DNA of 33,751 nucleotides from Victivallales bacterium (lineage in GTDB: Bacteria; Verrucomicrobiota; Lentisphaeria; Oligosphaerales; Oligosphaeraceae): contig JAGCSE010000200.1 of NCBI GenBank assembly GCA_017964325.1, positions 1 through 33,751 on the forward strand, read 5' to 3'. Below the pieces are notes generated by a model that ran no database searches, was not told the origin of the DNA, and saw only the letters and a program-made list of their open reading frames with translations. A program made the translations under genes and the position numbers. Below are positions 7,615 through 27,601 of this stretch, piece after piece (position 1 is the stretch's first letter; each line of letters begins with the position of its first letter).

Positions 7615-10395
7615 ATGAGAACTCTAAAAGAGGTGAATATAGGCGAGACGGTCACCGTCGTGAAAGTCACTGGCGAAGGCCCTGTCAAACGCCGCATCAT
7701 GGACATGGGCATCACGAAGGGGACGGACATCTATGTCCGCAAGGTCGCGCCGTTGGGCGATCCAATCGAAGTGATGGTCCGTGGATATGAACTGAGTCTC
7801 CGCAAGGCGGATGTCGAGATGATCCAAGTGGAGAAGCAATCCCTTGCAGCCGCGCATCGTGAAACGCCAGATGTGAAAGATGACAAGGCGGCAACCGTCT
7901 TGAAAAGCAACAAGCCGATACGCATCGCCCTCGCGGGCAATCCGAACAGCGGCAAGACGACGCTGTTCAACGCATTGACCGGCTCCAACCAATTCGTCGG
8001 CAACTGGCCCGGCGTGACGGTCGAAAAGAAAGAAGGCAAGCTCAAGAAACGCGACGATGTCATCGTCACGGACCTGCCCGGCATCTACTCGCTGTCGCCC
8101 TACACGCTGGAGGAAGTCGTTGCAAGAAAATATCTTTTGGACGAAGAACCCGAAGCGATTCTGAACATCATCGACGGCACGAATCTTGAGTGCAACCTCT
8201 ATTTGACGACGCAGTTGGCGGAGCTGGGCATCCCCATGGTCATCGCCGTAAACATGATGGACATCGTCCGGAAAAACGGCGACAGAATAGACTTTGAGGA
8301 GCTGTCGCGCGAACTCGGCTGCAAGGTCATGGAGATTTCCGCTCTGAACAATGACGGCGTCATGGCGGCTGCAGAGGAAGCCATCAAGGCGGCCAAACAT
8401 TCGCATCCGCTTCCAATGCACACATTTTCGGGCCCTGTGGAACACGCGATCGCCCACATCGAAGAAGCCGTGCTGCACGATATGCCGTCCGAACGGCAAC
8501 GTTGGTATGCCATCAAGATTTTCGAACGCGACGAAAAAGTTCTCACCAAGCTCGGCATTCCAGCCGACAAGCTGCAACATATTGAACAGGATATTCTTGC
8601 AGCAGAAAAGGAGCTGGATGACGATGCGGAATCCCTTATCATCAGCGAACGTTACAATTACATCGCAGAACTGCTCAAAGGCAGCTATTGGAAGGCGAAC
8701 GCAGGAGGGCTGACGACATCGGATAAAATTGATAAGATTGTAACCAGCCGTGTCTTAGGACTTCCGATTTTGGCGGTCATCATGTTTTTGGTATATTACA
8801 TTGCAATGGTGACGGTTGGTCAAAAGGCGAGTGACTGGGCCAATGAAGGTCTCTTCGGCGACGGATTCCATCTGTTCGGCGTCGGTTCCTCAAAGTACGA
8901 AGCGAAGATGGATGAATTCGTAGATGCACGAAACGCCATCAAGGCTTTTGTGACGGCGACAAACGCTCCCGATGTCGCGGCGAAACTGGATTCGGAAGCG
9001 GACGGTTTCAATGCGCAGGCTGCGGAAACGGCTCTGGTGGACTATGTCGCAACAGTCCCAAACGATGCAAAAGCGGCGTTGGAAATTGAAAATGAAGAAG
9101 ATCTGTCCACCACGGTTGCCGAATTCACAGGCGAAAATCTGAAAAACGCCGTTCCCGTCATGGCAAAATACGGCTTTGCGGAGCCCAATCCAGCGACCGA
9201 TGGCTGGTGGATTCCAGGCGTCCCAGTTGTCATCGGCGATATGTTGACAAAGATGAACTGCGCAAAATGGCTGCATGGACTGATCATCGGCGGCATTGTG
9301 GCGGGCGTCGGCGCGGTTCTCGGCTTCGTACCGCAGATATTCGTGCTGTTCCTGCTGCTGGCATTTTTGGAGGCGTGCGGCTACATGGCGCGAATCGCAT
9401 TTGTGCTCGACCGGCTGTTCCGCAAGTTCGGCCTTTCCGGCAAGAGCTTCATTCCGATTCTCGTCGGCACTGGCTGCGGCGTGCCAGGCATCATGGCCTC
9501 CCGCACGATTGAAAGCGAACGCGACCGCCGCATGACGATCATCACGACGACGTTCATCCCCTGCGGCGCGAAGACGCCGTTCATCGCACTAATCGCGGGT
9601 GCGATTTTCGGCGGTTCGCCGTGGATTGCAACCAGCGCCTATTTTCTTGGACTTGCCTGCATCGTCCTTTCAGGCATCATTCTGAAGAAGACGAAGATGT
9701 TCGCAGGTGAACCATCTCCGTTCGTCATGGAATTGCCACCCTATCATTTGCCGTTGATGTCCAATGTCTTGCGTTCCATGTGGGACCGTGGCTGGAGCTT
9801 CATCAAGAAAGCCGGAACGATCATCCTGCTTTGCACGGTGCTCGTCTGGCTCATGACGTATTTCGGTTTCACGGAAAGCGGATTCCGTATGCTGGGCGAC
9901 AATGAAATCGACCGCTCGCTTCTCGCCAAGCTCGGCAAAGGCATCGCGTGGATTTTCGCGCCGCTCGGCTGGGGGCATTGGCAGACGGCAGTGGCCTCCA
10001 TCACGGGGCTTGTCGCGAAGGAGAATATCGTCGGTACATTGGGCATCCTTTATAAGAACGGTACGACATCGAACGCCCGCGCCAATTTGGCTCTTGCGCT
10101 CAACGGCTGGGGGGGGTATTCCTTCTTGGCTTTCAATCTGCTCTGCGCACCGTGCGCCGCAGCCATGTCCGCCATTCGGCGTGAGATGAACAGTGCCCGT
10201 TGGACGGCGTTCGCCATTGGCTATCAATGCCTTCTGGCATACGTCGTTTCGCTGACCATCTATCAGATCGGCTCGGCCATCCATGGCCAGACGCATATCG
10301 TGGGACTCGTGGTGACGGTCGTCGTTGATGCGGTAGCGCTCTATATGCTGTTCCGCCCATACAAGGAACCGACGAAGCTGACCACAGTGAATTAA
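7615..10395 (+). CDS. feoB: Fused FeoA-FeoB ferrous iron transporter
   Basis: One 926-residue protein carries a FeoA-like SH3 domain (residues 1-73; RRIMDMGITKGTDIYV and a final VEMIQVE strand), a linker, and FeoB. The G domain begins at about 102: G1 GNPNSGKT (108-115), the FeoB signature NQFVGNWPGVTVEKKEG, G3 DLPG (153-156) and G4 NMMD (213-216). A helical GDI-like domain follows to about 370, then the membrane core with GTGCGVPGIMASRT (618-631) and the IPCGAKTPF repeat. Between the first membrane helix (about 383-401) and the next (about 552-575) lies about 150 residues of charged sequence, much longer than the loop in the classic proteobacterial protein. It imports Fe2+ at the inner membrane. 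No in-frame start exists upstream of the ATG at 7615 (stop at 7588). Confidence 0.96.
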   Translation: MRTLKEVNIGETVTVVKVTGEGPVKRRIMDMGITKGTDIYVRKVAPLGDPIEVMVRGYELSLRKADVEMIQVEKQSLAAAHRETPDVKDDKAATVLKSNKPIRIALAGNPNSGKTTLFNALTGSNQFVGNWPGVTVEKKEGKLKKRDDVIVTDLPGIYSLSPYTLEEVVARKYLLDEEPEAILNIIDGTNLECNLYLTTQLAELGIPMVIAVNMMDIVRKNGDRIDFEELSRELGCKVMEISALNNDGVMAAAEEAIKAAKHSHPLPMHTFSGPVEHAIAHIEEAVLHDMPSERQRWYAIKIFERDEKVLTKLGIPADKLQHIEQDILAAEKELDDDAESLIISERYNYIAELLKGSYWKANAGGLTTSDKIDKIVTSRVLGLPILAVIMFLVYYIAMVTVGQKASDWANEGLFGDGFHLFGVGSSKYEAKMDEFVDARNAIKAFVTATNAPDVAAKLDSEADGFNAQAAETALVDYVATVPNDAKAALEIENEEDLSTTVAEFTGENLKNAVPVMAKYGFAEPNPATDGWWIPGVPVVIGDMLTKMNCAKWLHGLIIGGIVAGVGAVLGFVPQIFVLFLLLAFLEACGYMARIAFVLDRLFRKFGLSGKSFIPILVGTGCGVPGIMASRTIESERDRRMTIITTTFIPCGAKTPFIALIAGAIFGGSPWIATSAYFLGLACIVLSGIILKKTKMFAGEPSPFVMELPPYHLPLMSNVLRSMWDRGWSFIKKAGTIILLCTVLVWLMTYFGFTESGFRMLGDNEIDRSLLAKLGKGIAWIFAPLGWGHWQTAVASITGLVAKENIVGTLGILYKNGTTSNARANLALALNGWGGYSFLAFNLLCAPCAAAMSAIRREMNSARWTAFAIGYQCLLAYVVSLTIYQIGSAIHGQTHIVGLVVTVVVDAVALYMLFRPYKEPTKLTTVN

Positions 10396-10410
10396 TCGGA
10401 GACAACTGCA

Positions 10411-10569
10411 ATGGAATGGCTAAGCGCAAACTGGGGGAATCTGCTCGTGGGAGCTGTGCTTTTGGCGATTGTCATTGGGATTGTCATCAATTTGATACGC
10501 AGAAAGCGTAACGGCTGCGACTGCGGATGCGGATGCGGATGTGCTGACTGCCCATCCCATAAAAAATGA
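10411..10569 (+). CDS. FeoB-associated Cys-rich membrane protein (52 aa)
   Basis: This gene of 52 codons starts 15 bases after feoAB, preceded by CGGAGA. It encodes one membrane helix (about residues 10-29, LLVGAVLLAIVIGIVINLI) followed by a basic RRKR stop-transfer and a short cytoplasmic tail with six cysteines at 36, 38, 40, 42, 44 and 47 (CDCGCGCGCADC). This is the usual architecture of the FeoB-associated Cys-rich membrane proteins that occupy the FeoC position in many anaerobes. They are thought to assist or sense iron at the transporter, though no mechanism is established. The tail could bind Fe2+ or an Fe-S cluster (inference). Confidence 0.88.
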   Translation: MEWLSANWGNLLVGAVLLAIVIGIVINLIRRKRNGCDCGCGCGCADCPSHKK

Positions 10570-10923
10570 CACTCCTTTAAAAAAACGGTCATGAAGACTC
10601 GTATGATTTTTGATGACTGCCTATAAAGACATTATGACTTTTTATGAGTCAGAGTATTCCTTTACTTGCAAAATTGAATAATATTGAACGATGAATTTTT
10701 TTCTTTACCATAACTATTTGATTTTTAGTTAAGGAATCGAAAAACGAAAAATTTTTTATAAAAAAAACACATCTAGGGTGTTTGCGTAAAGTGAATGAGC
10801 ATATATAGTGTTTGTATTGACAAACACAGCTATGGAGACGTTTGTCTCTGAAGCTGTTCATCCTTTACGCCCTCAAACAGGCGTTTTATCATCATTGTTC
10901 ATCAGAAGCATCAGAGGAAAAAC
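10570..10923. other. 354-bp non-coding region upstream of nrdD
   Basis: No credible gene is present. The left half is AT-rich and contains a small palindrome, TGACT (10635-10639)/AGTCA (10647-10651). The right half holds the regulatory repeats described separately at 10765-10827 and ends in a GAGGAAAA ribosome-binding site before the nrdD start. A possible promoter is TTGCGT at 10782-10787 with TATAGT at 10804-10809 (16-base spacer), which would overlap those repeats. Confidence 0.45.
10765..10827 (+). promoter_or_regulatory. Candidate NrdR-type operator pair and an adjacent perfect inverted repeat
   Basis: AAACAC (10765-10770) faces GTGTTT (10778-10783). Thirty bases further on, ATATATAGTGT (10801-10811) matches the right half of the known NrdR-box consensus (ACACWATATATWGTGT) exactly, while its left half is degenerate. 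NrdR boxes usually occur as pairs about three helical turns apart upstream of nrd operons, which fits. Overlapping the second site is a perfect inverted repeat, GTGTTTG (10808-10814) and CAAACAC (10821-10827) with a 6-base spacer. The position directly upstream of nrdD supports a regulatory role, but no nrdR gene is in the window. Confidence 0.4.
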
Positions 10924-13608
10924 ATGGCAACACAGGGTAACAGCTGCCCGTTCCAGTACTTTAGAAAGCGGGACGGCTTATTGGTCCCGTTCAGGGAGGA
11001 GAAGATAGCAAACGCCATCTTCAAAGCGGGAGAGGCGGCGAGCCGTCAAGGCGGCACGACGTTCCAGAGGGAGACGGCAGACCGTATCGCCCATGAAGTC
11101 GTGATGCAATTGGACAACCCGAACTGCGAATACTACACGCTGCCGGATGCGGACGGCAACCGCATCCCGAAACTGGAGGACGTGCAGGACATGGTCGAAA
11201 TCACGCTGGCGGAAAACAAACTGTCGGGCACCGTCGCGGCATACAAGCGCTACCGCAAGATTCGCGAACGCGCCCGCGCCGCCATTCATGTCCGTTCCAA
11301 CCAGTCTGATAGCAAAGAAGAGGCGGATTTGACGGATCAGAGCCTCCTGCTCGTGAAATCCGCTACGGCGGGAATGCTGCTGACGTGGGACCGCAGCCGC
11401 ATCGTCCACAAGCTCGTTGACAAGCTGAATATGGATGAAGAGACGGCGAACAGCATCGCGAAGGAAGTCGAGAACCAGATCATCAGCAGCAACATCAAGA
11501 CGGTCGGCACGGAGCTGATTCGCGAACTGGTCAATAACATCTTGGTAGAGCGCGGTTTCCGTGGCAAGCTGGAGGATTTGTCGCTGTATCACATCTCCCG
11601 CGAGTTCCTCGAAGATTTGATGAACAAGAAATCGAAGGAGAACAGTAACATCGTTTCGAACAATCCCGAAGCCGTGAACTTGAGCATTGCGGAATTGATT
11701 CTGAAGCAGTGGGGCCTTGAGACCATCTTCTCGCCGGACGTGAAACACGCCCATGACACGGGTGCCATCCACCTCCACGACCTCGGCTACCCGCATCGTG
11801 TCTATTGCTCCTCCCATTCCATTGAATATATAAAGAAATACGGTCTGCGCGATTTGTCGAATCTGAACACTGAGTCGAATCCCGCCCGCAGCGCGTCGGT
11901 TTTGACGGGCCATTTGAACACGTTCCTTGCGTCCATGCAGGCCAACTACGCGGGTGCGCTCGGCATCGCGTACATCAACATCTTCTACGCGCCGTATTTG
12001 GTCGGCAAGAATGAACGGCAGATGCATCAAGTGGCGCAGGAATTGATTTTCAACGGCTCGCAGAACGCCTTCTCGCGCGGTGGCCAGACGCTTTTCTTGG
12101 ATTTCAACATCCATACAGGCGTTCCGACCTATTTGAAGACCGTTCCCGCCATCGGTCCGGGCGGCTGCTATATGCTGCGCAAGGCGGATGGCACGATCAT
12201 CCCACTGAAAGAGCAGCTCCGCAACGACACGGACAACAACGGCAACCACTTAATGGACCTCTTCGCGGAGGAGAACGGCGAGTCGCGTCTCGTCCTCTCT
12301 GAACAGTATGAGGAGAAAGTCGGCCTCCACTATGATCCCGTCATCCAGAAGACGTTGGAAGACAACGGTGAACACATCATGGTCTATGGTGACTACATCA
12401 AGGAGGCGCAAGCCTTTACGTCCGCCCTCCTGAAAGTCTGGGGCGAAGGCGACCGCTGTGGCCGTGTGTTCGAGTTCCCGAAATGCGATTTCCACATCAG
12501 CGCCGAAACATTCTCCGATCCCGATCAATACAAAATCTACCAGGAAGCCTGTGAGCTCTCCTCCAAGAACGGTTCTACGTATTTCATATTCGATCGTGAC
12601 GAAGTCACGCTGTCGGCCTGCTGCCGTCTGCGCACGACGATTGACGACAACCGTATGCTCCGCCATCCGGAATGCATGCGCTTCTGCGGCTTCCAAAACG
12701 TCACCATCAACATCCCGCAGGCCGCTTTCCGCGCCGCCCGTCGCGGCAAGAAGACGTATGAAGGCCTGTTGGAGGAAATTGACGCGACGATGAACATCGC
12801 CGTGAAGGCTCACCTGCAGAAGAAGGCGAAAATCGCCGAAATGTTGTCCGGCCCAGGCCGTCCGTTGTGGCAGATCGGCAGGACGGCGTGCGACGGCCGC
12901 CCCTATGTCGAACTGGACAAAGCGACGTACATCATCGGCATCATCGGCTTGAACGATGCGTGCAAGTTCTTGTACGGTAAGGAATTGCACGAGGACAAAG
13001 AGGTCTTCAAGCTCGGTCTGAAGATCATCGCCCACATGTATCTGAACGCGAAGGAATACGCCAAGAAATACAATTTGAAATTCACGTTGGAGGAAAGTCC
13101 TGCGGAGAGCGCGGCGCGCCGTCTGGCCCAGACCGATCTGCGTTTCTTCCACGCGGAGGCGAAGGATGTCGTGAAAGGCGCGAACGAAGACGTCGCCTAC
13201 TACACGAACTCCATCCATCTTGCGGCGGAAGCTCCTGTTTGCCTTGTCGAACGCATCGAAAAACAGGCGATGTTCCACAGCATCATCGAATCCGGCGCCA
13301 TCACCCATGCGTTCATCGGCGAAGAGCATCCGTCGGCGGAAGCCATCGGTTCGCTGATCCGCGAAGTCTTCTATCGCACGCAGTCTGCGCAGGTGACGTT
13401 CTCACCGGAGTTTACGTACTGCCAGAAATGCGGCCACAAGTCCCGCGGCTTGCAGGAAACATGCGAACAGTGCGGCTCGAAGGATGTCGTCGGCGAAACG
13501 CGTGTTGTCGGATATTTCAGCAAGATTCAGAACTGGAACAAGTCGAAGCGATACGGCGAACTGGTTGCCCGCCAGAAAGGCCGCTACTCCGTGATGTCCG
13601 CAGAATGA
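10924..13608 (+). CDS. nrdD: Anaerobic (class III) ribonucleoside-triphosphate reductase
   Basis: An 894-residue glycyl-radical enzyme that makes dNTPs under anoxia. Residues about 10-110 form an ATP-cone (FRKRDGLLVPFREEKIANAI then KLEDVQDMVEITL), an allosteric nucleotide-binding module. The barrel follows with NrdD-typical segments such as GAIHLHDLGYPHRVYC, NAFSRGGQTLFLDFN and GRVFEFPKCDFH. The C-terminus has a four-Cys zinc site (Cys 833, 836, 847, 850) and RVVGYFSKIQNWN, in which Gly863 is the expected radical residue. The protein is longer than the roughly 700-residue enterobacterial enzyme. It is followed by a thioredoxin-fold gene and nrdG, a logical reductant and activase. The ATG at 10924 has a GAGGAAAA site. 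Confidence 0.96.
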   Translation: MATQGNSCPFQYFRKRDGLLVPFREEKIANAIFKAGEAASRQGGTTFQRETADRIAHEVVMQLDNPNCEYYTLPDADGNRIPKLEDVQDMVEITLAENKLSGTVAAYKRYRKIRERARAAIHVRSNQSDSKEEADLTDQSLLLVKSATAGMLLTWDRSRIVHKLVDKLNMDEETANSIAKEVENQIISSNIKTVGTELIRELVNNILVERGFRGKLEDLSLYHISREFLEDLMNKKSKENSNIVSNNPEAVNLSIAELILKQWGLETIFSPDVKHAHDTGAIHLHDLGYPHRVYCSSHSIEYIKKYGLRDLSNLNTESNPARSASVLTGHLNTFLASMQANYAGALGIAYINIFYAPYLVGKNERQMHQVAQELIFNGSQNAFSRGGQTLFLDFNIHTGVPTYLKTVPAIGPGGCYMLRKADGTIIPLKEQLRNDTDNNGNHLMDLFAEENGESRLVLSEQYEEKVGLHYDPVIQKTLEDNGEHIMVYGDYIKEAQAFTSALLKVWGEGDRCGRVFEFPKCDFHISAETFSDPDQYKIYQEACELSSKNGSTYFIFDRDEVTLSACCRLRTTIDDNRMLRHPECMRFCGFQNVTINIPQAAFRAARRGKKTYEGLLEEIDATMNIAVKAHLQKKAKIAEMLSGPGRPLWQIGRTACDGRPYVELDKATYIIGIIGLNDACKFLYGKELHEDKEVFKLGLKIIAHMYLNAKEYAKKYNLKFTLEESPAESAARRLAQTDLRFFHAEAKDVVKGANEDVAYYTNSIHLAAEAPVCLVERIEKQAMFHSIIESGAITHAFIGEEHPSAEAIGSLIREVFYRTQSAQVTFSPEFTYCQKCGHKSRGLQETCEQCGSKDVVGETRVVGYFSKIQNWNKSKRYGELVARQKGRYSVMSAE

Positions 13609-19606: not shown

Positions 19607-21187
19607 TCAAATGAGATGCGTCACTTTGATTTTCTTGTATTTTTTTCCGATGTCAAGCAGAAATGCGTTTTGATCCTTGATGATGAGTTCGCCTTTTTGA
19701 AGTCCTGCGATTTCCGTCCGTATCTCCTGCAATTCCTTTCCGCTGACACCAAACAAATCCTTTATGACAGAGTCCGAAATGGTCTGTTGCTTCATAATCA
19801 GCGGATACTGCGCATTGGCGTAGAAGTCAAAATGCTTGCTCTTGAAGCTTTCCATGTTCTGTGTTGCCAAAATGATGCTCAGCCCTTTGTTTCTTCCAAC
19901 CGCAATCAAGTTCCTCAACGGGCGGTTGTCGAAATCCAGCATATAGTGGGCTTCGTCGATGATGGTGAAATGGCGGATTTGCACAAGATTTTCCTCTTTG
20001 GCCTGCTGCGGGAGGTTCTCGTACAGAATATTGAGTTTGGAAACGATAAAATAGACGATTGCCTTGGCAATAGGACCGTCCTTGGGGAACGAGTCCATCT
20101 TGACAATGAAGCATTGATCGACTAAATTCACCTTGTCTTCCTTATCAAATAAGTTGTTGCGGACCAATTGTTTCAATACCGAAGTAACACTGTCGTCGTT
20201 TTCTGGATTTGTCATTTTGCCTTGGTATTGCGTCAGAATCAAATCAAACGTGACAGGAAGGCCATTCGTCTGCTTGTAGGCATCAACAATCGCCTCGCTC
20301 AGACGGTTGCTCATCTTGGCGCTGATGTTGGCCTTGTCAATTGCACAGAGAGCATTCGCCATATCTGTGGAATAAAGGTTGATTTCATTTATGGACTTGC
20401 CTGAGAAATTCTTGAACGGTGTAAAAGGCAAAGGCTTCTGGACCGGATCAAGGATGCTGGTGCGTCCAACGTCAAAGTATGTCAGCCAATTGTCATTGGC
20501 TGGATCGGAGAATTCGCCTTTATAATCGAACAGGAGGAAATTGACCGGATAGGCAGTTTCGGTAGAAAGCGTTCTCAATTGGTTAATTAGCACTGCCAGC
20601 AAGTTGGTCTTTCCTGAACCGGTGGAGCCTGCGATGAGAATTTGCGTATTAGGAATGCTGGTGTCATTGATGGGCAGGACGGCTTCCATCTCTCCGTCAT
20701 CATAATTGCCAATCAGAAGATTCAATACAGGAATAGAATGAGAAGTGCCGTGCACCGCAGTCACGGTAAACAGGAAATTGTTGAGATTGTTGTCGTCCAT
20801 CAAATGCTTTAGCCCCCGACGCATTTCCGAGGCAATAATCCGCGAAACTTTCGGGCTGTCGCTCCAGTCAACTTGGCAGTCCTTGTAGCGCAGTTTCAGG
20901 ACGGCCTCAAAAATGGTGTGCATTTGATTCAGCGTGAAGAAACTGCTCCAGATTTTCGTTTTGCTAGAAAGCTGGATGTTCTCAAAGTCCTCGCTTTTCC
21001 GCTGATCACACATGGTCAGACCTGCAATCAGGCAAATGCGCATGATCTTGTTGCCTGTCAGCGTGACTCTTTTCTCATTGCCGACAGTTTGCGAAAGATT
21101 GATTTTCTCTTCGATTTTAGTCTTCAAAGGCGTTAGCTCGTCAAGAATGCCTTCGGCCTGCCGTATGTTGTCAAAACTGATAGCCAT
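19607..21187 (-). CDS. HerA/DUF87-like DNA-translocase ATPase with DndE-like N-terminus
   Basis: 526 residues. The ATPase core has Walker A AGSTGSGKTN (186-195), the HerA/FtsK-type LLFDYKGEFSD strand (218-228, equivalent to DPHGEY/DPKGE), Walker B FTIIDEAHYML with DEAH at 411-414, and a sensor segment LATQNMESFKSKHFD. HerA relatives form hexameric DNA pumps and pair with nucleases in defence systems (DptH in Dnd restriction, HerA-SIR2/NurA pairs). Residues about 28-135 (INLSQTVGN, TGNKIMRICLIAGLTMCD, FTLNQMHTIFEAVLKLRYKD, IASEMRRGLKHLM) follow the layout of DndE, the small DNA-binding Dnd protein. That similarity is from memory and remote. GGAGG precedes the ATG, 14 bases after the DndD-like stop. 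It is the last gene of the operon. Confidence 0.85.
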   Translation of the reverse strand: MAISFDNIRQAEGILDELTPLKTKIEEKINLSQTVGNEKRVTLTGNKIMRICLIAGLTMCDQRKSEDFENIQLSSKTKIWSSFFTLNQMHTIFEAVLKLRYKDCQVDWSDSPKVSRIIASEMRRGLKHLMDDNNLNNFLFTVTAVHGTSHSIPVLNLLIGNYDDGEMEAVLPINDTSIPNTQILIAGSTGSGKTNLLAVLINQLRTLSTETAYPVNFLLFDYKGEFSDPANDNWLTYFDVGRTSILDPVQKPLPFTPFKNFSGKSINEINLYSTDMANALCAIDKANISAKMSNRLSEAIVDAYKQTNGLPVTFDLILTQYQGKMTNPENDDSVTSVLKQLVRNNLFDKEDKVNLVDQCFIVKMDSFPKDGPIAKAIVYFIVSKLNILYENLPQQAKEENLVQIRHFTIIDEAHYMLDFDNRPLRNLIAVGRNKGLSIILATQNMESFKSKHFDFYANAQYPLIMKQQTISDSVIKDLFGVSGKELQEIRTEIAGLQKGELIIKDQNAFLLDIGKKYKKIKVTHLI

Positions 21188-21201
21188 TACGCATTCCTCC
21201 G

Positions 21202-23205
21202 TCAGTCATTGTTCAGTTGGATTCCGAAATAACCATCCACCACGTCGGTGCGCTGATTTGCAACATCACGCTTCAAGGTATAGGTTCTGGAGATAAATGG
21301 CTCAAGCTTGATGTAGTCAGAATCTTTGCGGATTTCCGAAGTCGTGCAGAGGAGGATGGTCTGTTCCGCCAATTGCGGGAAATATTCCTCCATCAAGGCG
21401 TCGCGGCTTTCATTGTCCAATACGCCCATCACCGTGTCGATCATCACAGGAGGATTGTAGTCTCCAAGATTTCGCAGGACCTTCAGCAGAACCTGTATGA
21501 ATATTTGCTTTGAAGCGGCATTCAATTGATTCAATGAAATCTCATTTCCTGCCTGATGGTACATTTTGATGGTGAAATTTTCAAGGGAATCGCTGAGGCA
21601 TACCTTTGAAATCACGCCTTTGTAGGACACCAGCAGCTTGTTAAGCTGTTCACACATCTCGGTTTCTATCAGCTCACGCTTGCGTTTCAGCAATGCGTCC
21701 GCGACTTCTTCAAAGAACGGTTTCAGTTTCACCAAAGTGTCGAATTTGACGTCTGGCTCCTGCTGGATGGCGATGTCAAATTGGTGTATCTTCTTTTCCA
21801 ATGCCTTGCGTTTGTCCAAGAGAACGCTTTCCTCATCCTGCAATTTTTGCAGCTCTTTTTCCTTGCTTTCGTATTGCGCGATGAGTTCATCGTTGCCGCC
21901 AATCAACTGCCGTTCAAAAGTCTGCTTCTGCAACTGCAAATCCGAAAAGCCCGCCATCTTGGCCTCGCAAGCCTGTCGGGTCTCATTAAGCCTCGCAAAG
22001 TTGTTGCTGCCACCGATGTTGACCAAGGCAGCCAAAGCATTGACATCCGCTTCGTCAAGAAAATCATATGTTGACGATTCTCCATTCCTCTCTTGCGTCA
22101 GCATGATATATGAGACCACGCTTTCTTCGTCAATATCGCTGGTCAGCACCGCCATATCCTTCAGATACGCGAATATCTTCTTGGCGATTTCACGGACCTT
22201 CTCCTCCGAATATGTCTCCACTCCATTCTGACGATTCTTCTCCCTTTCACGCAATATGCCCTCCACTTCGGGGGCGATTTCAGATGCAAGTCGGGGAAGG
22301 AAGATATTTGCCTCCAAACTCTCCACCATCGCCTTCAGATCATCTGAATAATCGGCGGCGCTTTTAATGACATCGGCAATACGGGCCTCCAAATCGGCGA
22401 CTTTCTGCCTGGTGGCCGCCAGATTGCGCTCCCCCGCCTTGGCATTGTCATAGTCATCTTTCACAGATTGCAGGAATTTACTGATTCCATCTTGTTGGGC
22501 GGCATTCTCCTTCAGTTTTTCGTCTATCTCATCCTTTGCCTTGCAAAGTCGGTCATATTCAGCCTTTTCCTGTTCAGCCGCAAGACGTTCTGAAGCCTTT
22601 TCCTGCTGGAGCTTCTCAGCCGCCTTCCGCAACAGGACATATTTGTTGAAGCCCATCACATTCTCAAAATTCTCACGGATGATTTGCGCGAACACGCCGT
22701 CCTTGAGCAGATCGCTGGACTGCATGGCGTCAAACAGAAAGTATTTGCTCAGCTCCTGCGGCAGATTGGCCTTGATGATTTTGTTGACCTGCTGTTCACT
22801 CTTGATCCGTTGCGCGGCTGGCGTGGAAGTACCGTAGGCAAAAGCATTTCCATCCATGCTCAGATAGACGTTCTCCAACGGCTTGCCTTCTGGATTGAGC
22901 ATGTAGGTTCGTCGAAGAATATATTTCTGTTCTCTGGTTAGAACCTGTCCGGAAAATGTGACTTCCAGTTCAATGGATGGCTTCACCTTTCCTAGAGCAC
23001 CGTTGTTCAGCAATTCATCAAAGTGTGCTTTATCCTTGATTTTCAGGCCGTACAACGCACCATAGATGGCTTCGAACAGCGTCGTCTTGCCTCCCCCGTT
23101 CGCGCCCCCGATGAGAATGATCGGACGGTCCTCCGCCACCGACAAATCCAAATCAAGTGACAGGTATGTCTTGTAATTGCTAATCTTTACTCTTTTGATT
23201 ATCAT
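21202..23205 (-). CDS. DndD-like SMC-family ATPase
   Basis: 667 residues, close to DndD's usual 650-670. The N-terminus, MIIKRVKISNYKTY, is the RecF/SMC/DndD type, with Walker A GGANGGGKTT (33-42) and the DndD-like ALYG(L) that follows. Residues about 190-530 are charged and heptad-like, predicting a long coiled coil. The C-terminal half-ATPase has LNQLNAASKQIF in place of the ABC signature, then PPVMIDTVMGVLDNESRD, matching the Walker B and D-loop of DndD (IDTPLGRLD) although the usual catalytic Glu after the Asp is absent (Thr). In Dnd systems DndD helps DndC/E modify DNA; here no dndC is present. It overlaps the 76-aa gene by ATGA, so it is translationally coupled. Confidence 0.88.
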   Translation of the reverse strand: MIIKRVKISNYKTYLSLDLDLSVAEDRPIILIGGANGGGKTTLFEAIYGALYGLKIKDKAHFDELLNNGALGKVKPSIELEVTFSGQVLTREQKYILRRTYMLNPEGKPLENVYLSMDGNAFAYGTSTPAAQRIKSEQQVNKIIKANLPQELSKYFLFDAMQSSDLLKDGVFAQIIRENFENVMGFNKYVLLRKAAEKLQQEKASERLAAEQEKAEYDRLCKAKDEIDEKLKENAAQQDGISKFLQSVKDDYDNAKAGERNLAATRQKVADLEARIADVIKSAADYSDDLKAMVESLEANIFLPRLASEIAPEVEGILREREKNRQNGVETYSEEKVREIAKKIFAYLKDMAVLTSDIDEESVVSYIMLTQERNGESSTYDFLDEADVNALAALVNIGGSNNFARLNETRQACEAKMAGFSDLQLQKQTFERQLIGGNDELIAQYESKEKELQKLQDEESVLLDKRKALEKKIHQFDIAIQQEPDVKFDTLVKLKPFFEEVADALLKRKRELIETEMCEQLNKLLVSYKGVISKVCLSDSLENFTIKMYHQAGNEISLNQLNAASKQIFIQVLLKVLRNLGDYNPPVMIDTVMGVLDNESRDALMEEYFPQLAEQTILLCTTSEIRKDSDYIKLEPFISRTYTLKRDVANQRTDVVDGYFGIQLNND

Positions 23206-23432
23206 AGCTTGTTCGCCACAAGTTGTTGGATTGCATTGTTTACAACCTGTTCCACATCACCGCTGGACATCTCGATGGTATTGACCTTGCGCTCATGGTA
23301 CGCCTTCAGCAGCTGTTCCTCAACCCATTCCCTGTCCAGTTCATACTTGTCGCACAGGCTTTCGATGATTTCCAAATCGCCTCTTCGGATGCCGTAGTGC
23401 AGGAATTTGCCGTCCAATCCTTTGTTGTTCAT
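23202..23432 (-). CDS. Small helical protein associated with DNA-modification operon (76 aa)
   Basis: A GTG at 23438 opens the frame, but the ATG at 23432 has GAGG at 7-base spacing, while GAGG touches the GTG, so ATG is preferred. The 76 residues are predicted all-helical: FLHYGIRRGDLEIIESLCDKY, then LDREWVEEQLLKAYHERK, then SSGDVEQVVNNAIQQLV. The I-R-R/K-G-D-L-E and W-x-E-E-x-L-L-K-x-Y patterns are shared, as I recall, with small proteins that sit beside Mod/Res/DndD-like genes and are named only as modification-system-associated small proteins. No catalytic motif is visible. It begins 9 bases after the helicase stop and overlaps the DndD-like start by four bases. It may be a structural adaptor for the helicase or the SMC-like ATPase (inference). 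Confidence 0.75.
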   Translation of the reverse strand: MNNKGLDGKFLHYGIRRGDLEIIESLCDKYELDREWVEEQLLKAYHERKVNTIEMSSGDVEQVVNNAIQQLVANKL

Positions 23433-23441
23433 GATCACGCC

Positions 23442-25823
23442 TCACTTCTCATATTGGTCGGGTTGGAAGGCATCCCAATTCGTTATGTCGTCTGTATTCT
23501 CAATCGGCAATGGACTATAACGCCAATTCTCCTCCTGTTGGATGATGACACCGCCCATCAAATGCAAATGAGCATTTTCGCTGTCTTTCATATAGGCCAG
23601 CAACGCATTGTGCTTCGCGGGAGCGTCGATGTCGCTTGCCTGCGATTTTGTGTCAAAGAGAAAAACCTGCCCATTCTTCATTCGGATGATGAAATCCACA
23701 TAGAAAAGACTGCGCTCTCCTGTTTGGGCTTTTGTATAGCCGACGGCGTAGTCCTGCTTGCCGCTTTCGCCGTTCTTGTACCACCAGTCGATATAGTCCC
23801 GATTGGCTTCCAGAAATGCCTCGAAGCGCTGTTCCGGCATCGAGGCTCCATTCTGGCGGATGAACGGCACCAATGCGTGAATATGGGCGGGCACTTCCTT
23901 ATTGGTGCTTTCATTGTATTCCCTAAATTCCGGTATAAGCCAATGATATAGCTTGAAACTCCTGTTCTTCGCTTTGGCGCGACGTTCGTTCACTTTCTTC
24001 GTATAGGCATCAATCGCCTTTTTGAACAAATCCACGAAATGCGACCGATTTTTATTGTATAGGATGATTTTTGGGGCATCAACTTCAAACACGCCCAGCA
24101 TTTCCTCCATGAACGTATAGATATAGCCGCGCATCGACACCGCGCTTTGGCTCTCATAGCCATTCAGCAATTTTTTGCAGAATTTCGTCAAAGCCCACTC
24201 CAGCTCAGCCTGTGTTCTTGCATATTTGATGACCTTCCCTTGTTCAACTTGAAATTCACCTGCTTCGCCAGTGATATCCATATCGACGGGAATCCCTTCT
24301 GTCTGGATGCGGTGGCCGATGAAGTCGATCCCCAACGCCTCCGCTTTTTCACGGTTGTCGGCGATTTTTTCATCGTCTAATTTTGACAATCCCGGAAGAT
24401 AACCTCCTGAATTGTTAGCAGGTTTTGTTTTCTCCCCCTCTTCTGAGAAATCGAACTGCATTTGAATTTTGTGGCTAAACCATAGTGAGTTGGCTGTATT
24501 GGCCAGTACTTTTCCAAAATCCGCGCCGATGCGGTTGCGGTCGGCGCTGAGCCGTTCGCTGTATTCCGCGGGCAGCTCGACATTGGTAAGATTCTCCCTC
24601 CGTTCCGCCTTCAATGGTTTGCTGATGTAGTTCAAATCCTCCGTCTTGATGACCACCATTGTACTTTCCAGATTGGTATAGACCCAGCCACGGTTCAACA
24701 GGTCGTTCGGGTAGTATTTCTGCTCTGGCATCCGCAGAATGCGTCCAACAGTCTGGACACCGAATGTCGTGCTTTGGATATCCCTGAAAATCAATAGCAC
24801 CGCCGCGCGCGGGCAATCCCACCCCAGCGCGATGGCCTGCTTGAACAAAAGGACTTCGGCAACATTGTTAGGCTCCTCCAATCCATCCAGATTGGTTTTC
24901 TCGTTGGAGAGCCAGACAGCCAGCTTCCCATTGCCCGCCGTGATTTCATATTCCTTTTCCAGACGTGACTTGATTTCTTCAATAAGCAACGTTTCATCGG
25001 CATTCAGCTTGTCACTGTCGTCATTCGGCAGTTGTATCAGCAGCAACGGATTGATGCGGACACCCAATGCCTCGTATGCCTTTTTGATTTCGTTTCGTCT
25101 GCCCAATGCCTTGTCAAGCAATATCTCGTTCTCATTCAGACCTTCCTGGACTTCCGTAATCTTCGGGTTGATGGTGATGCCGTTCTTGATCATCTGCGCC
25201 TTGATGACTTTTTCACGGCTGACCGCCACCATCGCATCCGGAGCAGTAGTAATCGGCGTGGCGGAAATGCGGATTTCCAGTTTTGGCTGAATGTTCGCCA
25301 GAACTTTTTCTGACTGTGTCGCAGCTTTGCTGGTGAACATATGTTCTTCATCGATGACGACAATAATAGGCAGGTTGTGGTCTTCCTGCGTCCGTCTGGT
25401 CAAGTCATAGAGGGAAGAGGAGTTTTCCGTATCCCGCACCATTACGTTGGTGTCTTTGTTGATGCTTTCCCAGTTGACGAAGAAGATTTCGCCCGGCTTG
25501 ATGTAGCCGCCAATGGAATGGTCCAGTTCATCATACATCACAGGCGACAACGCACGCGTTTCCGAAAAGTAGTTTTTCATCCGGAAATAGCTCTGCTGAT
25601 GAAGCTTGTTCGGGGCGATCCAGATGATGGCGACTTCCTGCCCGTCCTGTTCCAACTCCGTGGTCAGTTCGTCCAGCATCTTGCTGGCCATCACGGTCTT
25701 GCCGGAACCGGTCGGCGCCTTGAAGACCAGTTTCTTCCTCGTGCCATTCTCCTCCAAAAGCTCGAGCGTCTTTTTAACAAGCTCTTTGACAGCCTCCACT
25801 TGATATTGGACATCTTTTATCAT
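23442..25823 (-). CDS. Res-like DEAD/DEAH helicase with C-terminal PD-(D/E)xK-type nuclease
   Basis: 793 residues of superfamily-2 helicase with type III restriction subunit (Res) character. Walker A is APTGSGKT (36-43), Walker B is VVIDEEH (DEEH 158-161) and motif III is ISATP (187-190). The second RecA lobe has WDCPRAAVLLIFRD and TVGRILRMPEQK, the Res-type motif VI (QxxGRxxR equivalent). Near the C-terminus FYVDFIIRMKNGQVFLFDTK places Asp710, Asp724 and Lys726 as a D-x13-D-x-K metal site, a variant of PD-(D/E)xK with Asp in the second position. It would translocate or loop DNA and cut it. An AGGAGG site precedes the ATG, which overlaps the methyltransferase stop (ATGA), as in many mod-res pairs. 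Confidence 0.9.
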   Translation of the reverse strand: MIKDVQYQVEAVKELVKKTLELLEENGTRKKLVFKAPTGSGKTVMASKMLDELTTELEQDGQEVAIIWIAPNKLHQQSYFRMKNYFSETRALSPVMYDELDHSIGGYIKPGEIFFVNWESINKDTNVMVRDTENSSSLYDLTRRTQEDHNLPIIVVIDEEHMFTSKAATQSEKVLANIQPKLEIRISATPITTAPDAMVAVSREKVIKAQMIKNGITINPKITEVQEGLNENEILLDKALGRRNEIKKAYEALGVRINPLLLIQLPNDDSDKLNADETLLIEEIKSRLEKEYEITAGNGKLAVWLSNEKTNLDGLEEPNNVAEVLLFKQAIALGWDCPRAAVLLIFRDIQSTTFGVQTVGRILRMPEQKYYPNDLLNRGWVYTNLESTMVVIKTEDLNYISKPLKAERRENLTNVELPAEYSERLSADRNRIGADFGKVLANTANSLWFSHKIQMQFDFSEEGEKTKPANNSGGYLPGLSKLDDEKIADNREKAEALGIDFIGHRIQTEGIPVDMDITGEAGEFQVEQGKVIKYARTQAELEWALTKFCKKLLNGYESQSAVSMRGYIYTFMEEMLGVFEVDAPKIILYNKNRSHFVDLFKKAIDAYTKKVNERRAKAKNRSFKLYHWLIPEFREYNESTNKEVPAHIHALVPFIRQNGASMPEQRFEAFLEANRDYIDWWYKNGESGKQDYAVGYTKAQTGERSLFYVDFIIRMKNGQVFLFDTKSQASDIDAPAKHNALLAYMKDSENAHLHLMGGVIIQQEENWRYSPLPIENTDDITNWDAFQPDQYEK

Positions 25824-27601
25824 TGCGCGTCCTCCTCGCTGGAATTGGCAGCTTCGCTTTCATTTTGACCTTCAACATCTTCGGCAGTTTTATTTTGCGG
25901 CAGCACATTCTTGTATGCCTTGTAGATGGCGTCTGGCAGCGCGCACAACTCCACTTTGTCCATAACCTCCTCGAAATCATCATCGTAGGCGTAGTTGTCA
26001 TTGGAAAAAACATAGACCAGAATCTTGCCTTCCACCTCCATGTCCAGAAGCAAATCCACGAACTTGGAGATGGCCGCTTCTATATAGATGACCAGCATTC
26101 TCGTCTTGCCGTCATCAAAATAACGGGCGACTTTTGGATGCAGTTTCACACCTCCGAATTCACCGATTTCTTGATAGACATTGTTCTTGATGCAAAGCAA
26201 ATCGGTGGCGGCTACTGTCAAGGCACGCTTGTTCGCCATTGTCTTCACACGTGGTACGAAAGTTGTTTTGTAATAACGCAAGTTATTGGAATGCAAACCT
26301 TCAACTGCTTCGCCTTTTGGAATTGTGTAGCCTTGAATAACTCGGCGGTTGCGATCGTAGGTGATTTCCTCACAGATATTGTTCTCATTGTTCGTGATTA
26401 GAATGCACTGTCGATGTCCACCGTCATCTGCATTCAATTGCATGGTGGCTTGCAAAGTCGTGCCACTACCAGCGAAGAAGTCGAGGATAATACCATTGGG
26501 ACAATTACTCATAAAGCATATATCATAAATGAGCTCTACAGGTTTAGCAAAATCAAAAACTGACATAAGAGTGCCATATATTCTCTTTAAGGCTTCGCTG
26601 CCACGTGAATTGACATAATTATCAGCAAACCAAGTTGTAAATTGTTTATTTTTATTTTTTAACCCCCTTACTTTTTCATAAACTATGTATGTCCCATTCT
26701 CTCTCTTTTCAAAAATAACTTCATCTTCAGATACAGCCTTGAGCATTTTTTTCTTTCCCCAGCGCCAACGCCCGTCACTGCCATCGTTTCGAATAGGATA
26801 TACATCTTCACCATTAGGTCCGGGGATTGCAAACCACATTGTTGGGGAATCTTCTCTTCGAGAACCGGCTCCCCATTTGTTTAATTCACGCCCCTTAGTA
26901 TAAGCCCCTTTGTTGTCTGTTAACTCTAGATCCAACTCATCTTTTTCATAGCCTGTGAATTTTTGCATAATCTCAATAGACTTGGCAAAAATATGAACAT
27001 AATCGTGTACAGTACGAATATTATCAGAACGACTACCTCCTTTTATGGCTTGCCTACAAATAGTTGCTATATAATTCTTTTCTCCAAATACTTCATTGCA
27101 AAGAAGTTTCAACTGAGCTTGTTCATTATCGTCAATAGAGATAAATATCACACCTTTTTCAGAAAGTAATTCTTTGGTTATTTCCAATCGTTTTCTCATA
27201 AACGAAAGCCATTTGGAATGGCGATAGGAATCCTCTTTGTCAACCCAATCATCATTATATTTGAAATCATTTTTCTTGCCTGTATTATACGGCGGGTCAA
27301 TATAGATTACGTCAATTCTTCCTGCATGGGTATAAGAAAGGGCAGTTAATGCATGGAGATTGTCGCCCTCAATGAGAATATGGTTCGGGGCGTCCGCATC
27401 TTCGGAGAGGATGGCGCGTTCCTTGACTTCTGTCAAGACAGGAAGCTCATCTTTCAACTGCGTTTCAACATCTTCTGGCTTGTCCTCCCAGACAATTCCG
27501 TATTTCTTCCGCTCATGAAGCAATTCCAGCAAGGCGGATTTCTCATCATTCGACAGGCCGTCCAATGCCTTTATCTTTTGGGCAAGCGCTCTTTTGTCCA
27601 T
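25820..27601 (-). CDS. Site-specific DNA adenine methyltransferase, type III Mod-like (beta class)
   Basis: 593 residues. Motif IV, IDPPYNTGKKNDF with DPPY at 102-105, comes before motif I, LDFFAGSGTT (376-382). This is the beta order of type III Mod and related N6-adenine (or N4-cytosine) methyltransferases. EGDNLHALTAL (78-88) upstream and SEKGVIFISIDDNEQAQL (about 147-164) are also Mod hallmarks. Residues about 200-365 between the motifs form the target-recognition region. The last 200 residues are an unassigned region ending in an acidic tail. The gene opens the operon, with GGAAGGG about 10 bases before the ATG. The DNA from about 26510 to 27330 is only about 25-40% GC, against about 50% in the flanks, which suggests exchange of that part. 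Confidence 0.92.
   Translation of the reverse strand: MDKRALAQKIKALDGLSNDEKSALLELLHERKKYGIVWEDKPEDVETQLKDELPVLTEVKERAILSEDADAPNHILIEGDNLHALTALSYTHAGRIDVIYIDPPYNTGKKNDFKYNDDWVDKEDSYRHSKWLSFMRKRLEITKELLSEKGVIFISIDDNEQAQLKLLCNEVFGEKNYIATICRQAIKGGSRSDNIRTVHDYVHIFAKSIEIMQKFTGYEKDELDLELTDNKGAYTKGRELNKWGAGSRREDSPTMWFAIPGPNGEDVYPIRNDGSDGRWRWGKKKMLKAVSEDEVIFEKRENGTYIVYEKVRGLKNKNKQFTTWFADNYVNSRGSEALKRIYGTLMSVFDFAKPVELIYDICFMSNCPNGIILDFFAGSGTTLQATMQLNADDGGHRQCILITNNENNICEEITYDRNRRVIQGYTIPKGEAVEGLHSNNLRYYKTTFVPRVKTMANKRALTVAATDLLCIKNNVYQEIGEFGGVKLHPKVARYFDDGKTRMLVIYIEAAISKFVDLLLDMEVEGKILVYVFSNDNYAYDDDFEEVMDKVELCALPDAIYKAYKNVLPQNKTAEDVEGQNESEAANSSEEDAQ

Follow-up and report, generated by a model that had tools for sequence, protein, structure and literature searches.

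A minus-strand operon from a Victivallales contig joins a type III Mod-Res pair to Sp-DndD, DndD and a predicted DndE-HerA fusion

Type III restriction-modification systems cleave DNA in an ATP-dependent manner and need two unmethylated sites to do so. DndD and DndE usually come up in connection with sulfur modification; in the window analysed here, the whole 33,751-nucleotide stretch of contig JAGCSE010000200.1 from a Victivallales bacterium, both are linked to a restriction pair of the methylating kind. Five genes of one operon encode a type III DNA methyltransferase (Mod), an SF2 helicase-nuclease (Res), a small protein (SP), a DndD-clade ABC ATPase and a protein predicted to be DndE fused to HerA, the last three being termed the triad (L, G and C numbers denote loci, genomes and contigs). 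Some of these combinations are already published: Rakesh et al. 2024 (PMC10853773) describe a DndE-HerA fusion next to an ATPase of the DndD type, and cytosine methylases that accompany CxC-DndE systems. Of 320 solitary PbeAC, 155 were reported to have base-modifying genes no more than 10 kb away, and solitary Pbe systems were proposed to use methylation (PMC6459918). DndFGH has been ascribed nickase and translocase activity (PMC11662687). For the exact five-gene set, no description was found in the literature searched, with supplements and gkaa726 (reference 24 of PMC10853773, which may describe the set) lying outside its scope; in PMC10853773, “type III” occurs only in the reference list, besides one “Type-I/III-like” comparison in section 16. 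With moderate confidence, we read the operon as a single restriction system against invaders, in which self would be marked by base methylation and not by sulfur, with the triad as its second arm; its role is probably defence. This reading draws on its anatomy and conservation, on the lack of DndC matches, on a Res clade linked to the triad, and on swapped recognition domains and reassortment.

All five genes lie on the minus strand, in the order mod (25820..27601, 593 aa), res (23442..25823, 793 aa), the SP gene (23202..23438), the DndD gene (21202..23205, 667 aa) and the fusion gene (19607..21187, 526 aa). The junctions Mod/Res, Res/SP, SP/DndD and DndD/fusion measure -4, +3, -4 and +14 bases, and the expected motifs were found in Mod, Res, DndD and HerA. 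A preliminary description of this DNA had proposed the same order, with ATGA overlaps or gaps of at most 14 bases, and each open reading frame was recovered at the place and strand it gave. Its “76-aa protein” exists, having 78 aa from a GTG start and 76 only from an ATG two codons on, and its “DndE/HerA-type” gene does encode a HerA-type ATPase, though as part of a putative DndE-HerA fusion.

Mod is an amino-methyltransferase of type III build, with the proposed DPPY motif at residues 102-105, FAGSGT (FxGxG) at 376-381 and an inserted recognition domain, whose stretch, within limits set in this analysis, covers residues 176-348 (26558..27076, minus strand). It matched the families MTase_III (2.9e-90) and N6_N4_Mtase (1e-31) and three solved Mod subunits, EcoP15I included (4.2e-47 to 3.8e-37); family membership points to the adenine-N6 class. 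Res revealed an SF2 motor with the type III helicase domain ResIII (1.9e-16), and PbeA models covered only its helicase part (residues 4-197). For its predicted structure, the first Foldseek row was EcoP15I Res (4zcf_C, E 9.7e-12), but with a TM of only 0.29-0.36, and it is one of many SF2 motors with a similar Z. The C-terminal region (23454..23846, minus strand, about residues 660-790) appears PD-(D/E)XK-like, judging from the residues E664, D710 and D724-x-K726, which are present in the window Res and invariant in 20 of 20 aligned Res. In the families of Mod and Res, the order of their genes, a hypervariable recognition domain and an SF2 motor with a PD-(D/E)XK-like motif, the operon resembles the type III systems EcoP15I and Mbo45V; it differs by three further genes and by a Res whose clade does not include the nine other type III Res in the sample.

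Regarding the triad, SP matched the Pfam family Sp-DndD (PF20306) with 1.7e-05 and 25.2 bits, slightly under the cut-off of 27.2, and 21 of 21 aligned SP relatives matched it at E<=0.01 (best 4.5e-12). The best model for the ABC ATPase was DndD (4.6e-60), ahead of PbeC (2.1e-54); its match to NCBI TIGR03185, the DndD of sulfur systems, reached 8.7e-50 and 169.8 bits, below the cut-off of 245.85. It contains neither CxC nor CxxC, and any CxC occurs in only one of 16 aligned DndD proteins (alignment A5, 16 rows, L024 dropped). The 526-aa fusion protein matched the HerA end of DndH (1e-30) and DUF87 (3.8e-08), in the former case only the end of models 1389-1715 positions long. Residues 150-526 (19610..20740, minus strand) form the HerA/FtsK-class ATPase domain. 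Residues 1-140 (20768..21187, minus strand) are predicted to fold as strand-helix-helix twice plus an end helix; they are assigned to DndE by this fold, because Pfam DndE gave no match and comparing profiles against a DndE and a PbeD-like protein, one of each, produced no hit. The pairing of a DndD ABC ATPase with DndE that characterises Dnd systems is found here, with DndE taken by fold and DndD under the NCBI cut-off.

Such a DndD-related ATPase beside DndE fused to HerA recalls the clade-3 HerA/FtsK systems of Rakesh et al. (PMC10853773), a likeness taken from architecture and not from a HerA clade tree. Those systems are placed in phosphorothioation there, unlike the present set, which adds a type III Mod-Res pair and Sp-DndD and whose relatives mostly come without DndC. 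A DndFGH/DptFGH locus does not fit either, since the five genes are otherwise assigned and DndF and DndG find no place among them, and since of DndH the end alone was matched. From the PADLOC models of Hma, DISARM and MADS, only mad8 and mad3 appeared among the matches listed, both on the HerA protein (for Mod and DndD, among the best 25 matches).

Scanning species genomes for the fusion protein unveiled 31 loci, all in Bacteroidota. In 22 of them the sequence extends 7.2 kb or more upstream of the HerA gene, and 21 of these hold all five genes in the same order, so that a chance neighbourhood, which would have spoken against the preliminary description, was not what we met. The lone exception, L008, retains only a 92-codon end of dndD beside the fusion gene (9720-11581), its set being degraded or interrupted. 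Three more full sets (L049, L103 and L105) were found by other routes. A sample of 395 genomes from the phylum contained the fusion protein in three, the centre genome included. A Res tree of 36 rows placed all 25 triad-linked rows, together with L104 and the contig-cut L106, in one clade with support of 100/100, and the nine other type III Res fell outside. Eight of these nine lack a triad in the fetched stretch, while the ninth, L045, stops at a contig end and is sister to L044. The tree omits the triad loci L003, L015, L016, L019 and L049 and the contig-cut L107 and L112 (the contig of the latter ends with the Res frame and was counted as cut), and carries flags for long branches (L113, L110) and odd composition (L106, L024). 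With L104 as the exception, sampled triad-less type III Res lie outside the triad-linked clade, which speaks against a plain type III locus with unrelated neighbours.

Sulfur genes are largely missing from this picture. As the preliminary description had noted, DndA, DndB and DndC are not in the window, none occurring among the Pfam matches (E<=0.001) of the 19 other open reading frames scanned. Searching 23 relative carrier genomes, most of them drafts and together covering 23 of the 31 loci, gave no DndC match at E<=0.001 in 22; in the control, five of 14 well-known genomes matched, none over the cut-off. The sole match, in G014, lies on contig C8 and has as neighbours a DndD of its own and, judged by position, an open reading frame the size of DndE, and the five-gene set of this genome is on a separate contig, C35. 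A different arrangement was seen at L058 (G306:C83, 2723-9512), with a PAPS-reductase (DndC-like) gene, a DndD-like ATPase, a 164-aa open reading frame, DndB and a DndE-HerA fusion; by gene content, this locus looks like the sulfur-type counterpart of the window fusion. With sulfur-type genes at L058 and a methyltransferase in the window, the DndE-HerA architecture appears to occur in both settings.

The choice of the methylated site could be traced by comparing 23 sets, i.e. the window and 22 loci, after dropping loci lacking any of the five genes and L010, whose Mod is contig-cut; pieces or long starts lower the figures for Res of L019, DndD of L024, L030 and L031 and the fusion protein of L031. 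Mean pairwise identity of the Mod recognition stretch was 16.9%, against 66.0% and 48.8% for its flanks, and amounted to 45% for Res, 43% for SP, 46% for DndD, 40% for DndE and 70% for HerA, the DndE domain evolving faster than the HerA domain. Sixteen pairs have HerA domains with 85% identity or more; in 13 of them, the recognition stretch showed no more than 23% identity, the other three reaching 40, 65 and 100%. DndE was 97% identical between L001 and L002, 100% between L019 and L020 and 98% between L022 and L025, while the recognition stretches of these pairs shared 14-23%. At the DNA level, the middle of mod falls to 31-51% per 100 bases, with flanks mostly at 70-99%; upstream of mod, L001/L002 and L030/L031 also diverge, and the divergence after mod in L001/L002 is due to an inserted gene. 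As the Mod recognition stretch changes while DndE hardly does, these sequences argue against DndE choosing the methylation site. Self-marking by methylation with a DndD-HerA machine as a restriction or recruitment arm, as first suggested for this locus, fits the swaps, the lack of DndC in 22 of 23 carriers and the triad-linked Res clade; either role, like any activity, is inferred. With recognition domains swapped next to near-constant DndD and DndE, the role of DndD-DndE and HerA becomes testable without sulfur chemistry, and restriction motors may be shared, portable parts.

How such a system might work can be outlined from type III, Pbe and DndFGH systems, on which the steps after recognition are modelled. 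Going by its family and the observed swaps, Mod would methylate adenines at a short site set by the exchangeable recognition domain, and Mod-Res would inspect DNA as in type III restriction. SP, the DndD ABC ATPase and the DndE-HerA fusion might assemble into a second, ATP-driven complex, in which DndD-DndE would clamp or loop DNA, HerA would pump it and SP would regulate or bridge. In line with the swaps, this complex would leave the choice of the methylation site to Mod. Triad and Res together could then turn the recognition of an unmarked site into cleavage of the invader or blocked replication; the physical complex, the order of these events and their outcome for a phage are conjectural.

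Several observations weigh against a single system. Its two halves are usually together yet appear reshuffled like cassettes. Pairwise identities correlated strongly between Mod-C and Res (0.85) and within SP, DndD, DndE and HerA (0.80-0.93) but less so across the halves (Res versus triad parts 0.32-0.51, Mod-C versus triad parts 0.35-0.57), the pairs not being independent. Nine rows that the Res tree unites (together with L104, 99/97) came apart in the fusion-protein tree, where keeping them together was rejected (p-AU 6.4e-05, lnL difference 362). Some loci contain extra genes inside the operon, either between Mod and Res, such as a YhcG-type nuclease gene in L001 (4320-5402) and a RhuM-like frame in L103 (seen by eye), or between Res and SP, such as RhuM in L026 (6776-7759) and Fic in L022 (6498-7595). 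The sample of Res without a triad, the nine outside rows, is small. Moreover, the Mod-Res pair of L104 belongs to the triad-linked clade but has no triad within about 9 kb downstream; its genome, G532, has the full set elsewhere (L103), and the two recognition stretches are 13% identical. The triad was also met apart from Res: G306 and G298 hold SP, DndD and the fusion, each on a different contig (three contigs), yet gave no Res match, which was likewise missing in G492 and weak in G498 (2.3e-9) and G506 (1.2e-15); G001 served as the positive control. The triad, it seems, can be kept in the absence of this Res and so may have a role without it.

G532 has so far shown one triad and two Mod-Res pairs, whose recognition domains differ. 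A tentative, more far-reaching reading is that the triad is a specificity-free, ATP-driven arm usable, even in trans, by any Mod-Res of one compatible clade, which would constitute a distinct restriction-modification type. If true, a single restriction motor could serve several methylation specificities within one cell, with G532 as a natural case.

The same reassortment could mean that two independent defence systems, a self-sufficient type III pair and a separate SP-DndD-DndE.HerA system, travel together in islands as neighbours. L014 and L026 share SP, DndD, DndE and HerA at 97-99% identity but Res at 44%, congruence of Res and triad was rejected as given above, G306 and G298 carry the triad proteins without a Res match, and type III pairs without a triad exist. 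Such pairs were counted among the Res matches in five of 395 phylum genomes (one with a triad, three without in the fetched stretch and one, G130, cut by a contig end) and in 11 of 393 genomes of the order (three full sets, one also holding L104; three contig-cut, L106, L107 and L112; five without a triad in the stretches fetched, of which L109 spans only 1.8 kb after Res). Against this stand the short junctions, the fixed order at 21 of 22 loci and the fact that the Res of these loci make up one clade and no random draw from the type III Res sampled, which renders two separate systems rather unlikely.

Genomes with a dispersed triad come from one Bacteroidota family, in which DndD and DndE.HerA, with SP where tested, were observed at chromosomal sites, either dispersed or in pairs, and had no strong Res relative with them (L056, L072 and L068; L046; L065 and L066). 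DndD adjoins the fusion gene in G498, and in L056 and L072 (G306, G498) it lies near an NMN-transporter gene. Mod relatives, looked for in four of the five genomes named above, were absent from G298, distant in G306 and G498 and close in G506, where the gene contains one stop and the contig ends 254 bases later, so that Res may be missing from the assembly. A core-genome role of the triad was considered and not borne out, the fusion protein being present in only four of 10 genomes of the G306 family and DndD in five of 61 drawn from the order (the same four carriers and G492).

Another possibility is a Pbe-like suicide or replication-block system, in which Res would not cleave phage DNA and SP would act as a fuse releasing an effector. 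The order restriction helicase, small protein, ABC ATPase and DndE-like protein is shared with PbeABCD and CxC ABC ATPase-DndE systems and with L062, a locus assigned here to Pbe, where CxC was seen by eye. PbeABCD was reported to halt viral DNA replication without cleavage (PMC6459918), and the small protein was proposed to be a negative regulator (PMC10853773). The window set differs in lacking CxC, in having HerA fused to DndE, in a Mod of probable adenine class where PMC10853773 names cytosine methylases, and in the PD-(D/E)XK-like motif of Res where PLD/HKD is found in theirs. As this motif is kept invariant, although reported missing from PbeA (PMC6459918), and a comparison of SP with one PbeB-like protein brought up no sequence relationship, we regard a Pbe-like mode of action as unlikely.

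By analogy with DndCDE in sulfur systems, the triad could instead serve modification, with DndD-DndE scanning DNA and delivering the methyltransferase to its sites, and both have indeed been described as the core of modification systems (PMC10853773). The Mod recognition domain, however, changes while DndE hardly does, and L104 has Mod-Res without a local triad, though its genome has one elsewhere. Type III Mod enzymes, moreover, methylate without helpers, all of which makes a modification role improbable. Lastly, a phosphorothioation system with dndC (and dndA) elsewhere in the genome, for which the DndC-like gene beside the fusion at L058 and the placement of DndE-HerA in sulfur systems (PMC10853773) might be quoted, is very improbable given that 22 of 23 carrier genomes, most of them drafts, gave no DndC match.

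Returning to the restriction operon as favoured above, its host is probably a Lentisphaerota bacterium, as suggested by the anaerobic ribonucleotide reductase NrdD of the window (10924-13608): among the best 120 of 1999 relatives were Victivallales at 83 and 74%, Oligosphaeraceae at 79% and other Lentisphaeria at 67-69%, with a few other taxon labels at 67-68%. The nearest taxonomically named sets are in Bacteroidota, with a fusion protein of 75% identity, and relatives at 91-92% also exist without a taxon name. For such a host, transfer of the five-gene set between phyla is likely. In viral contigs, 183 stretches fitted a pattern, with no relatives among them. Eight plasmid records matched, in the HerA part only and with 21-25% identity; the three viewed (H21, H23 and H25) carry a gene for a cytosine methyltransferase next to a much larger ATPase gene and were taken as another kind of system. 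Three phage records matched, and the one viewed, H29, is L049 (MT835906.1), deposited as an unverified Bacteriophage sp. contig. It encodes a relaxase and an integrase followed by the whole five-gene set and, rather than a phage, probably represents a mobilizable element.

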